Source: Planctomycetota bacterium
Lineage (GTDB): Bacteria; Planctomycetota; Phycisphaerae; Phycisphaerales; SM1A02
DNA length: 40,096 bases
NCBI GenBank assembly: GCA_017859745.1
Contig: JAFMML010000030.1
Location: forward strand, 1 to 40,096
Direction: 5' to 3'
Positions 15,141-19,152 of the stretch are shown piece after piece. The position numbers and the translations under genes were made by a program. The notes under the pieces were generated by a model that was not told the DNA's origin, searched no databases, and worked only from the letters and a program-made list of their open reading frames with translations. Numbering within the stretch: position 1 is the first letter of the stretch; every line of letters starts with the position of its first letter.

Positions 15141-15283
15141 GGGGTGCCTGGCAGCCCCGGAACAACTCTCCCCATTGGCGAATCGGCAGCGGGCGGCGCA
15201 CAACTTGCGTCGAAATCCATGCAAGCCGTCTCCGAGTGGGCATCATCCGGAAACCGCGATCCGCGTTGATCGTGTCCCCACGC

Positions 15284-16780
15284 ATGTCTGCACCCTCCGA
15301 CCAGACCCACTCCGCGAACCTCGTCGAGGAACCATCGCCCCGTTGGAGCATTCGTGGACCGGCCTTGTTCGCCGGACCGACGGCAGCCATCGCCGTGGCG
15401 ACGACCTTGCCCGAACCGAGCGCCACCGCCGAGACGTTCGCCCTTTCGCACGAGGGCGGTGTGGTGCTCGGGCTCATGGCGTGGATGGCGATCTGGTGGC
15501 TGTTCCAGGCGGTGCCCATCGCGGTCACCGCCCTCCTGCCGGTCGCCCTGCTGCCGGTCTTCGGGGTCGGCCGGTTCTCCGACGCGGCCGCGCCGTATGC
15601 CTCGGACGTGATCTTCCTCTTCGCCGGTGGCTGTCTGCTCGCCACTGCGATCGACCGACATGGGCTCGGTCGACGCTTCGCGACGGCGATCCTCTCGGTC
15701 GCCGGTCGCCGACCCGCCGCGATCGTCGGGGCGTTCGTCGTGGTCACCGCGGCGCTCTCGGCGGTCGTCTCCAACACCGCAACCGTCGCGATCGTGCTGC
15801 CGCTCGCGGCCGGCGCCGTCGCCTACGTCGAACGCCACGCCGCGCCGGGCCCGGAGCGCGATCGGCTCGTCCGCCGCTTCACCGTCTGTCTGCTGCTCGC
15901 CGTCGCCTACGCGGCCAACATCGGAGGATGCCTGACCATCGTGGGCAGCCCGCCGAACGCGATCGGTGCGAAGCTCCTCAGCGAGCGCACCGGCGAGCCG
16001 ATCTCGTTCCTGGGATGGATGCGCTTCGGCGCGCCGGTCGTCGCGATCATGCTCCCGACGATGTGGCTTCTCCTGACCTCCGTTCTGCAGCCGCTGCGGG
16101 ATCTGGTGCTCGATACCGACGAGGGACCGACCTTCGAGGCGGCGAAACCGATGACCCGGGAAGCCTGGTTCACCCTGGGCGTGTTTCTCGCGACGGTCGC
16201 GGCCTGGGTGAGCAGGCCCTACTGGCCCGGCGAGATCTCCTCGATCGGCGACTGGGGTGTGGCCACGATCGCGGCGCTGCTGCTGCTGTGCGTGCCGCTG
16301 CGAACCTCCACCGGATGCACCACGCTCGGGGTGAGAGACCTCGCCGGTCTCCCGTGGGGCGTGTTCATCCTCTTCGGCGGCGGCATCAGCCTGGCGGTGG
16401 CGATGAAGGCCCACGGCGTCGACGGATATCTCGGGTCGCTGTTCACCGATCTCGAGGGGCTGCCGCCTTGGCTCGTCGTCGCAGCGGTCGTCGCGGCGGT
16501 CGTCTTCCTGACCGAGATCACTTCGAACACCGCCGTGGCCAGCGCCGTCATTCCGGTGCTGCTCGCGCTTGCGGCCACACTCGCCATGGCCCCCGCGGAA
16601 CTGGTGCTCACCGTGGCCGTCGCGGCGAGCCTGGCCTTCATGCTGCCCGTCGGCACGCCACCCAACGCCCTGGTCTTCTCGACCGGCCGGGTTCCGGTGG
16701 CGGCGATGATCCGCTGCGGTCTCGTCCTGAACCTCGTCGCGATCGTGGTGATCACCGGCCTGTCCAGAATCCTCCTTTGA
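15284..16780 (+). CDS. SLC13/DASS family transporter (dicarboxylate or sulfate, Na+-coupled)
   Basis: 498 residues with about 11-12 membrane spans. Both halves carry the hallmark SNT motif at the tips of the re-entrant hairpins: VVSNTATVAIVLPL in the first half and EITSNTAVASAVIPVL in the second, which in this family form the sodium and carboxylate sites. The two matching loops GSPPNAIGAK and LPVGTPPNALVF are also present, the latter being the DASS signature. An early ALLPVALLPVFGV segment is also typical. I chose ATG 15284; a GTG 16 codons upstream in frame is possible but adds only a basic stretch. The substrate could be C4-dicarboxylates, citrate or sulfate; the sequence does not decide. 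It precedes the nucleoside-transporter fusion by 98 bp on the same strand. Confidence 0.9.
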   Translation: MSAPSDQTHSANLVEEPSPRWSIRGPALFAGPTAAIAVATTLPEPSATAETFALSHEGGVVLGLMAWMAIWWLFQAVPIAVTALLPVALLPVFGVGRFSDAAAPYASDVIFLFAGGCLLATAIDRHGLGRRFATAILSVAGRRPAAIVGAFVVVTAALSAVVSNTATVAIVLPLAAGAVAYVERHAAPGPERDRLVRRFTVCLLLAVAYAANIGGCLTIVGSPPNAIGAKLLSERTGEPISFLGWMRFGAPVVAIMLPTMWLLLTSVLQPLRDLVLDTDEGPTFEAAKPMTREAWFTLGVFLATVAAWVSRPYWPGEISSIGDWGVATIAALLLLCVPLRTSTGCTTLGVRDLAGLPWGVFILFGGGISLAVAMKAHGVDGYLGSLFTDLEGLPPWLVVAAVVAAVVFLTEITSNTAVASAVIPVLLALAATLAMAPAELVLTVAVAASLAFMLPVGTPPNALVFSTGRVPVAAMIRCGLVLNLVAIVVITGLSRILL

Positions 16781-16865: not shown

Positions 16866-16871
16866 TACATT
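16866..16871 (+). promoter_or_regulatory. Candidate -10 box close to the fusion-gene ATG
   Basis: TACATT ends 7 nt before the ATG at 16879, and no Shine-Dalgarno is present. It supports the ATG over the in-frame TTG at 16870, which would overlap the box. Confidence 0.35.
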
Positions 16872-16878
16872 GCCGCCC

Positions 16879-19152
16879 ATGCCCGACGGAGATCCCTCGC
16901 GATTCCACGGCCTGCTCGCGATCGCGGCATTCGTCGCGGTCGCGTGGCTCTTCTCGTCCTCGCGAGGTCGCGTCCCGGTGCGCATCGTGGTCACCGGGAT
17001 GCTGCTGCAGGTGGTCATTGCGCTGCTGCTGCTGCGGGTGCCGGTGACCGCCGACGCCTTCGACGCCGTCGCCGGTGTCGTCGCCAAGGCGATCTCCTTC
17101 GCGGACGAGGGCAGTCGCTTCGTGTTCGGATCGCTCAGCGACCCCTCCGGCCCGTGGGGGTTCGTCTTCGCCTTTCGGGTGCTGCCGGTCATCGTCTTCT
17201 TCGCGGCGACGATGGCGGTGCTCTACCAGCTGCGGGTGATGCCGGTGATCGTCTCGGGCATGGCATGGTGCCTGCGTCGAACCCTCGGCGTCACCGGCAC
17301 CGAGGCGCTCTCGACGGCGAGCAACGTGCTCGTCGGGCAGACCGAGGCGCCGCTCTGCGTTCGGCCGTACCTGCCGCGGATGACCCGATCCCAGCTGATG
17401 GTCGTCATGACCGGCGGCTTCGCGACGATCGCCGGCAGCGTGCTGGCTGGCTACGTGAGCTTCCTCGGCGGCGAGGACGAGGCCCGGCGGGTCGAGTTCG
17501 CTCGACATCTGCTGACCGCATCGCTGATGTCGGCGCCTGCGGCGTTCGTGATGGCGAAGCTGCTCGTGCCCGAGACCGAACCGGTGGAGGAGAGCGAGGT
17601 CGAGGCGGCGGAACTCAAGCCCGGCGCCAACGTCCTCGATGCGGTCGCCGTCGGCGCCGGCGACGGCTTGAAGCTCGCCCTCAACGTCGCGGCGATGCTC
17701 GTCGCCTTCGTGGCGATCCTCGCGCTGATGGACTGGCCGATCGCGGCGCTGGGCGAATGGGCACCTGTCGCGGCATGGCGGGGCGAGCACGACCTTGGGC
17801 CGTGGGGCATCGCGCCGCTGCTGGGACTCTGCTTCTCGCCGGTGGCGTGGTTGCTGGGCATACCCTCGAACGACGTGTCCCGAGTCGGGGAACTGCTGGG
17901 GACGCAGATCGTCGCCACCGAGTTCGTCGCCTACCTCCGGCTCTCCGAGATGCAGGCCGACTCCAGCCTGTCGCCGCGTTCCGTCGTGATCGCCACCTAC
18001 GCCCTCTGCGGGTTCGCGAACCTTCCGTCGATCGCGGTCCAGATCGGCGGTCTCGGCGCCCTCGCGCCGACGCGTCGCGCCGACCTGTCGCGGCTGGCGT
18101 TCCGCGCCATGTGCGGCGGCGCCATGGCCTGCTGGTCCACCGCGGCGATCGCGGGCATGGTCCTGCCTGCGGACGAGATGCCGCCACGCCTCGACGTGTC
18201 CCCGATCTCGCAGCGCGCCGAGGACTCGCCCGCGTCCGAACGGGACGCCGACACCTGCGGCCCGCCGGTTCCCGGCATCGTGGTGCTCGACGGTCGCGAT
18301 TCGTGGCCACAGGGGTTGCGGAAGATCGAGGAGCCTCTTGCGACTCTGCACAACGTCTTCGAGATCGCGCCGGGCCTCTACAGCGGCTCCGGCCCCGAGA
18401 CCGAGGCCGAACTCGACGCGTTGGCGAACCTCGGCATCCGCACGGTGATCTCCGTCGACGGCGCGCGCCCGAAGCACGAGTGGGCCTCCGAGCGCGGCAT
18501 GCGCTACGTGCACCTGCCGATCGGCTACGACACCGTCGATCCCCTGCAGCGGATGCGCCTCGTGCGGTCGGTGCGCGATCTCGAACGACCCATCTACCTG
18601 CACTGCCATCACGGCAAGCACCGTGGTCCGGCGGCGCTGGTCTACGCACAGGTCTCGCTCGGACGTTGCGACGCCCGCACCGGCCTGCGTCTCCTCGAGA
18701 TCCTCGGGACGTCCAGGAGCTACCCGGGCCTCTATGCCGCCGTGACCGGCGCAAGCCTGGTCGATCCGGACGAGATCGATGCGGTCGAGGAGCTGGAACT
18801 CGCGCCGGTCGCGAAAGTCGGCGACCTTGCCGCAGGCATGGCGAAGGCCGATCGCGTGTTCGATCGCCTCTTCGTCATCGAGGCCGCCGGCTGGAAGGTC
18901 CCCGCGGAGCACCCCGATCTCGTGCCCGCCGCGGAGACCGGCATCCTGACCGAGCTCTTCCGCGGCATGCGGGGACTTCGCGAGGGTGCGTCGCCCGGTG
19001 ACGACCACGAGCGGCAGATCGAGGCGTTCATCGAACGATCGACGGCCCTCGAGGCGGCGATTCGCGAAGGTCGGGCGAAGGAGGCTTCTGCAGTCCTCGC
19101 CGATCTCGACACCAGGTGCACCGCCTGCCACAAGGCGTGGCGCAACAAGTAG
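16879..19152 (+). CDS. Fusion: concentrative nucleoside transporter + tyrosine-phosphatase-like domain + cytochrome c'-like heme domain
   Basis: 757 residues in one uninterrupted frame. Residues ~1-430 are a CNT nucleoside transporter with the key motifs GQTEAP (Glu156), TEFVAYLRL (Glu348) and CGFANLPSIAVQIGGLG (Asn381), which in studied CNTs bind nucleoside and Na+. A linker of about 55 residues follows. Residues ~490-620 form a cysteine-dependent phosphatase-like domain with the P-loop HCHHGKHRG (Cys576, CX5R) and an upstream strand GIRTVISVDGARP. Residues ~625-757 are helical and end in CTACHKAW (Cys747, Cys750, His751), the position of the CXXCH heme site in cytochrome c'. Phosphatase plus terminal CXXCH occurs in other planctomycete proteins as far as I recall; its fusion to a CNT is unfamiliar to me. 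Covalent heme requires a periplasmic C-terminus, which fits CNT topology. An ATG at 18187 could give an internal start, but no ribosome site is seen. Confidence 0.85.
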   Translation: MPDGDPSRFHGLLAIAAFVAVAWLFSSSRGRVPVRIVVTGMLLQVVIALLLLRVPVTADAFDAVAGVVAKAISFADEGSRFVFGSLSDPSGPWGFVFAFRVLPVIVFFAATMAVLYQLRVMPVIVSGMAWCLRRTLGVTGTEALSTASNVLVGQTEAPLCVRPYLPRMTRSQLMVVMTGGFATIAGSVLAGYVSFLGGEDEARRVEFARHLLTASLMSAPAAFVMAKLLVPETEPVEESEVEAAELKPGANVLDAVAVGAGDGLKLALNVAAMLVAFVAILALMDWPIAALGEWAPVAAWRGEHDLGPWGIAPLLGLCFSPVAWLLGIPSNDVSRVGELLGTQIVATEFVAYLRLSEMQADSSLSPRSVVIATYALCGFANLPSIAVQIGGLGALAPTRRADLSRLAFRAMCGGAMACWSTAAIAGMVLPADEMPPRLDVSPISQRAEDSPASERDADTCGPPVPGIVVLDGRDSWPQGLRKIEEPLATLHNVFEIAPGLYSGSGPETEAELDALANLGIRTVISVDGARPKHEWASERGMRYVHLPIGYDTVDPLQRMRLVRSVRDLERPIYLHCHHGKHRGPAALVYAQVSLGRCDARTGLRLLEILGTSRSYPGLYAAVTGASLVDPDEIDAVEELELAPVAKVGDLAAGMAKADRVFDRLFVIEAAGWKVPAEHPDLVPAAETGILTELFRGMRGLREGASPGDDHERQIEAFIERSTALEAAIREGRAKEASAVLADLDTRCTACHKAWRNK

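Follow-up and report, generated by a model that had tools for sequence, protein, structure and literature searches.

Why should a nucleoside transporter carry a phosphatase domain and a heme domain at its C-terminus, all in one reading frame? The question is raised by a gene in a 40,096-nucleotide stretch of planctomycete DNA (contig JAFMML010000030.1 of assembly GCA_017859745.1, the whole of which is called the window here). A sequence-only reading had described the gene as a single 757-residue frame of three parts. Open reading frame and Pfam analyses bear out both the frame and its length, and confirmed the order of the parts: a CNT/NupC nucleoside transporter, a linker, a TpbA-like CX5R phosphatase domain, and a class II heme domain ending in CTACHKAWR. 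The motifs also lie where that reading had placed them (GQTEAP at residues 153-158, TEFVAY at 347-352, CGFANLPS at 377-384, Cys576 in HCHHGKHRG, and Cys747, Cys750 and His751 in CTACH). The genome of the gene, designated G000, contains one match to the fusion protein, and an in-frame TTG lies at 16870, upstream of the ATG start. The gene and its main divisions are as follows.

16879..19152, plus strand: whole fusion gene, 757 amino acids plus stop, starting with ATG at 16879; open frame without stops, full-length orthologue in G001 (a second species of the genus)
16903..18165, plus strand: CNT/NupC nucleoside transporter, residues 9-429; three Pfam CNT models, matches to VcCNT and CNTnw, predicted fold matching both
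18166..18339, plus strand: linker, residues about 430-487; disordered and with no hydrophobic segment, little conserved between G000 and G001
18340..18783, plus strand: TpbA-like PTP-superfamily phosphatase domain, residues about 488-635; PTP-SAK in Pfam, TpbA by profile and fold
18784..19149, plus strand: class II (cytochrome c'-type) four-helix heme domain, residues about 636-757; four long helices, cytochrome c' profile match

All three Pfam CNT models match within residues 14-426 above their cut-offs (Nucleos_tra2_N, 9.8e-22; Gate, 1.8e-16; Nucleos_tra2_C, 2.9e-71), and the nupC subfamily model TIGR00804 matches at 3.1e-117, yet below its own cut-off of 442 bits. In comparisons with sequences of known structure, the CNT part matches VcCNT (3tij, 4.1e-83) and CNTnw (5l26, 1.1e-83), and the CNT fold in the full-length predicted model matches the same two structures. 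The nucleoside and Na+ site of VcCNT we take to comprise N149, QTE 154-156, E332, F366, N368 and S371. Upon alignment to VcCNT, the site residues are kept in the fusion protein as N149, Q154, T155, E156, E348, F379, N381 and S384, several of them within one motif:

17335..17352, plus strand: GQTEAP, residues 153-158, nucleoside/Na+ site by alignment to VcCNT; conserved in the CNT alignment

Judging by its sequence, the transporter part is a Na+-coupled-type CNT nucleoside importer. Additions to the C-terminus of a CNT may recur: three other planctomycete CNTs (L117:2537-4507, L123:615-2822 and L124:3-2075) have different extensions there, of about 120-220 residues, likely helical and without a Pfam match. 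About 100 bases upstream of the fusion gene and on the same strand, a CitMHS/Na_sulph_symp (SLC13-type) transporter is encoded at 15236-16780 (+) of the window, possibly in one transcription unit with the CNT.

Is the fusion genuine? Both species that carry it are known only from draft MAGs, and one could propose an assembly or frameshift artefact, or two proteins made by way of an internal start in the linker. However, a search of 60 genomes of near relatives found one with a full-length homologue, the independent MAG G001 (JAPOKA010000005.1), in which the same full-length fusion runs without stops. The two assemblies share the junction, and an assembly error or frameshift was rejected on that evidence. 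An internal start near 18187 was also checked and is unlikely: the G001 linker lacks Met, and there is no signal segment in the linker of either species, so that a separately made C-terminal half would have no export signal. We regard an artefact of any of these kinds as extremely improbable. G000 and G001 each have one CNT and one copy of the C-terminal half, and the fused copy is therefore the only one.

The two fusion proteins are 72% identical overall, 82% in the CNT and 61% in the C-terminal half, with the key residues kept. The dN/dS values between them, by the Nei-Gojobori method, are 0.21 (CNT), 0.24 (phosphatase), 0.42 (linker) and 0.44 (heme part); purifying selection acts on both added domains, the phosphatase and the heme part. 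The fusion might still be neutral or accidental, with a tail that is tolerated and useless in its new place, and its occurrence in only two species and the faster evolution of the heme part and linker relative to the CNT would fit. But neither species has lost any of the invariant phosphatase or heme residues, both domains show dN/dS values well under 1, and we consider a useless tail very unlikely. The same observations, with the full fusion in a second species, uphold the initial judgement that this is not a decayed read-through.

Searches with the full protein found the three-part order in only G000 and G001, and the idea of a widespread trait was rejected. Apart from these two, none of the 181 genomes searched from the taxonomic family and none of the 392 searched from the phylum had the fusion; there, the CNT and the C-terminal half are separate genes, or only one of them is present. 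Nor was a further CNT fusion found in the order when 400 genomes were queried with the C-terminal half and the best and longest open frames were scanned with Pfam. In the third species of the genus (G002), the CNT is 77% identical and ends about 30 residues past the last helix, a fasciclin gene follows, and a search found no C-terminal half anywhere in the genome. The gene order of SLC13-type transporter then CNT is common to all three species, the tail to two; the CNT is therefore at an old site, and the tail was gained in the line of G000 and G001 (or, less simply, lost from G002). Present in two species, and with a sister species whose CNT at this locus has no tail, the fusion looks recent.

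What kind of phosphatase has been added? PTP-SAK matches residues 500-582 at 2.6e-7, above its cut-off, and a profile built from 64 relatives of the C-terminal half matches TpbA at 1.8e-11. An AlphaFold2 model of the C-terminal half based on these 64 relatives (mean pLDDT 94) has a phosphatase fold followed by four long helices, and TpbA is its first Foldseek match (1.7e-6). Phosphatases filled the matches listed in this fold comparison, and cytochromes c' were not among them. Two features bear on catalysis.

18601..18624, plus strand: P-loop HCHHGKHR, residues 575-582, with nucleophile C576 and phosphate-binding R582; C576, G579 and R582 in 64/64 relatives
18529..18531, plus strand: Asp551, at the position of the TpbA general acid Asp105 by profile alignment; Asp in only 29/64 relatives

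An HCX5R P-loop with its Cys and Arg, set in a predicted DSP fold, points to a dual-specificity phosphatase of the PTP superfamily. Most PTPs have Ser or Thr directly after the P-loop Arg, which speeds hydrolysis of the phosphocysteine. The fusion protein has Gly583 instead, and the 64 relatives have Ser (31), Gly (27) or Ala (6). A lower turnover is expected, and PTP membership is not excluded, as PRLs also have no Ser/Thr there. The four His of the P-loop (H575, H577, H578 and H581) are nearly invariant, in 62-63 of the 64 relatives, which is unusual for a CX5R phosphatase; contact of these His with metal or heme is conceivable.

In the heme domain, Cytochrom_C_2 matches residues 708-755 at 0.0013, with 20.1 bits, below its cut-off of 26.5; several relatives, L024, L042, L092 and L101 among them, reach or pass that cut-off, and when the heme part alone is searched as a profile, cytochrome c' is matched at 6.6e-7. 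Conserved residues of the domain are the following.

19117..19131, plus strand: heme-attachment motif CTACH, residues 747-751, followed by Arg755; C747, C750, H751 and R755 in 64/64 relatives
18838..18840, plus strand: Met654 in helix 1, a possible axial heme ligand or distal-pocket residue; Met in 64/64 relatives

In the profile alignment, the cytochrome b562 ligand Met7 falls three residues past Met654, and the role of Met654 as a ligand is therefore not established. Its invariance would be compatible with His/Met six-coordination, as in electron transfer, as well as with a five-coordinate, gas-binding iron, and NO/CO sensing by the domain is possible. The label "cytochrome c'-like" given at the outset thus holds for the class II four-helix fold, and does not settle how the heme is coordinated.

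The C-terminal half is a full member of an unnamed planctomycete family of exported phosphatase-cytochromes, which have the same two domains in the same order, with invariant CX5R, CXXCH and Met654. The sequence-only reading had named phosphatase and CXXCH combinations as known from planctomycetes, rightly so: of 400 genomes searched in the order, 222 encode relatives of the C-terminal half. A scan of named genomes found at least 500 places encoding such a relative; 80 were kept, mostly from planctomycete MAGs, and only the G001 copy among them is attached to a CNT. Most of the 80 begin with one short hydrophobic segment, and about 55 of the 80 have a lipobox-like motif as judged by a crude pattern. 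In a phylogenetic tree, the two fused sequences group together (SH-aLRT 99), and their sister group (96) consists of separate proteins from a neighbouring genus, with signal-peptide-like starts. No description of the CNT fusion or of the phosphatase-cytochrome family was found in the open-access literature; what is new is a rare domain arrangement of known folds, together with a large family for which no description was found.

Other partners of the module were also encountered. In three genomes from another family of the order, a glutathione peroxidase domain precedes the module in one frame (L026:4530-6017 (+), L027:4377-6083 (+) and L104:256-1788 (-)). In G054 (L034:5482-7473 (-)), a Na/Ca exchanger (PF01699, 1.4e-58) is followed in one frame by a divergent module with an altered P-loop, TCETGRDR, and an intact CTRCH, a second transporter fusion; it was seen in G054 alone and not found in 149 further genomes of that organism's family.

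On which side of the membrane does the tail lie? Both termini of VcCNT are periplasmic (PMC5465479), and prokaryotic CNTs have an Nout-Cout topology (PMC4659628). Since the last CNT helix of the fusion protein ends near residue 428 and the C-terminus of bacterial CNTs is periplasmic, the tail is placed in the periplasm. The location proposed earlier for the phosphatase and heme parts is thus supported by the topology of VcCNT, by the signal peptides and lipoboxes of unfused relatives, and by the presence, in each of the genus's three genomes, of a gene for a cytochrome c assembly protein (PF01578). In the full-length model, the CNT is well predicted and the linker is disordered (pLDDT 25-44 across residues 434-478); the C-terminal half is weaker, as expected with an alignment of two sequences there. 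No contact between tail and CNT appears in this model.

Taken together, these results suggest that the CNT probably replaces a lost signal peptide or lipid anchor, exporting and tethering a heme-phosphatase that acts on periplasmic or membrane phospho-substrates, with the heme possibly tuning the cysteine. The proposal is favored because unfused relatives are exported, the fused pair is sister to proteins with signal-peptide-like starts, and the CNT C-terminus is periplasmic. It is also favored by the variety of fusion partners of the module (a glutathione peroxidase, a Na/Ca exchanger) and by the lack of preferential co-occurrence of CNT and module (see below). The full fusion in a second species, the dN/dS values of the added domains, the absence of a second copy of either part, the shared SLC13-CNT gene order, the cytochrome c assembly protein and the disordered linker also count in its favor. 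In the proposed scheme, an in-frame fusion would have linked the periplasmic C-terminus of the CNT to the planctomycete module of TpbA-like phosphatase and class II cytochrome c, and the CNT would do what a signal peptide or lipid anchor did for the free ancestor. It would carry the C-terminal half through the inner membrane to the side on which heme can be joined to CTACH, and a flexible tether of roughly 50 residues would keep that half at the outer face. There, the phosphatase would act, like its free relatives, on phosphorylated targets, periplasmic or at the membrane, and the neighbouring heme might tune the chemistry of its cysteine. We infer export, heme attachment, catalysis and redox tuning for the tail, and transport that is not directly coupled to the phosphatase.

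A different role was suggested when the gene was first read: an ecto-nucleotidase coupled to an importer, in which the phosphatase dephosphorylates a periplasmic nucleotide or related ligand, the fused CNT imports the nucleoside, and the heme serves as a redox or NO/CO gate. Both activities would be found at one face of the membrane, genes for steps of the same pathway are often fused, and selection maintains this fusion. However, the nearest characterised relative, TpbA, dephosphorylates proteins (PMC4409338), and the module is usually free or has unrelated partners. No nucleotidase family matched the fusion protein in scans with Pfam and subfamily models. Moreover, in the 181 family genomes the module occurs in 36 of 65 with a CNT and 61 of 116 others (p=0.76), a weak test because the genomes are incomplete and phylogenetically non-independent, and a comparison of 61 genomes likewise gave no signal (p=0.36). 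Nucleotide dephosphorylation feeding the transporter is not supported by these results, and we consider it quite improbable. A PADLOC search gave no match that would indicate anti-phage defence.

Could the tail instead regulate the transporter? A low-turnover phosphatase domain might alter CNT activity according to the redox state of its heme or cysteine, much as PRL phosphatases, which have Ala after the P-loop Arg, act as pseudophosphatases on CNNM magnesium transporters (PMC12192612). Gly583 in place of Ser/Thr fits such a switch, and the fold matches of the C-terminal half include PRL as well as PRL-CNNM complexes. Against it, many PTP folds were matched, of which PRLs are just one kind; free relatives without a transporter have Gly, Ser or Ala at the 583 position; and the linker is disordered with no tail-CNT contact predicted. 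We view this switch as possible and rather unlikely. Nucleoside import directly coupled to, or gated by, a built-in periplasmic phosphatase responsive to redox state or gas is a similarly doubtful proposition; if true, a single protein would link periplasmic redox state to nucleoside salvage.

If the CNT does serve as exporter and anchor, an integral transporter does the exporting and anchoring that otherwise falls to a signal peptide or lipid anchor. Two of the three species in the genus have kept the fusion under selection, which may indicate that proximity to the CNT is important for more than anchoring. The fusion offers a testable hint as to where this family of exported heme-phosphatases works, and is no proof of action on nucleosides.

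How does the fusion protein compare with known systems? With VcCNT (3TIJ), CNTnw (5L26) and NupC it shares the whole transporter fold, the nucleoside-site motifs and the last helix with which CNTs end, at about 40% identity in the aligned structures; known CNT structures stop just past that helix, whereas the fusion protein adds 328 residues. The best match of the phosphatase domain by both profile and fold is TpbA (4R0S), a periplasmic dual-specificity phosphatase of Pseudomonas aeruginosa that shares the HCxxGxxR loop and an Asp at the general acid position, which in TpbA is Asp105 (PMC4409338). TpbA works in the periplasm, but has neither a heme domain nor a transporter, and has Thr rather than Gly after the P-loop Arg. 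The heme domain resembles cytochrome c' (class II cytochrome c) in its four-helix bundle, its C-terminal CXXCH and an Arg at His+4; unlike cytochrome c', it has an invariant Met in helix 1, and the likeness in sequence is confined to the last two helices. Cytochrome c' is usually a free dimeric protein. The PRL-CNNM pair likewise places a PTP-fold domain without the P-loop Ser/Thr beside a transporter, a likeness by analogy only, since that pair is cytosolic, consists of separate proteins, involves an unrelated transporter and has no heme. Finally, a signal peptide or lipobox is the usual N-terminus in the planctomycete family itself, and in G000 and G001 a CNT stands there instead.
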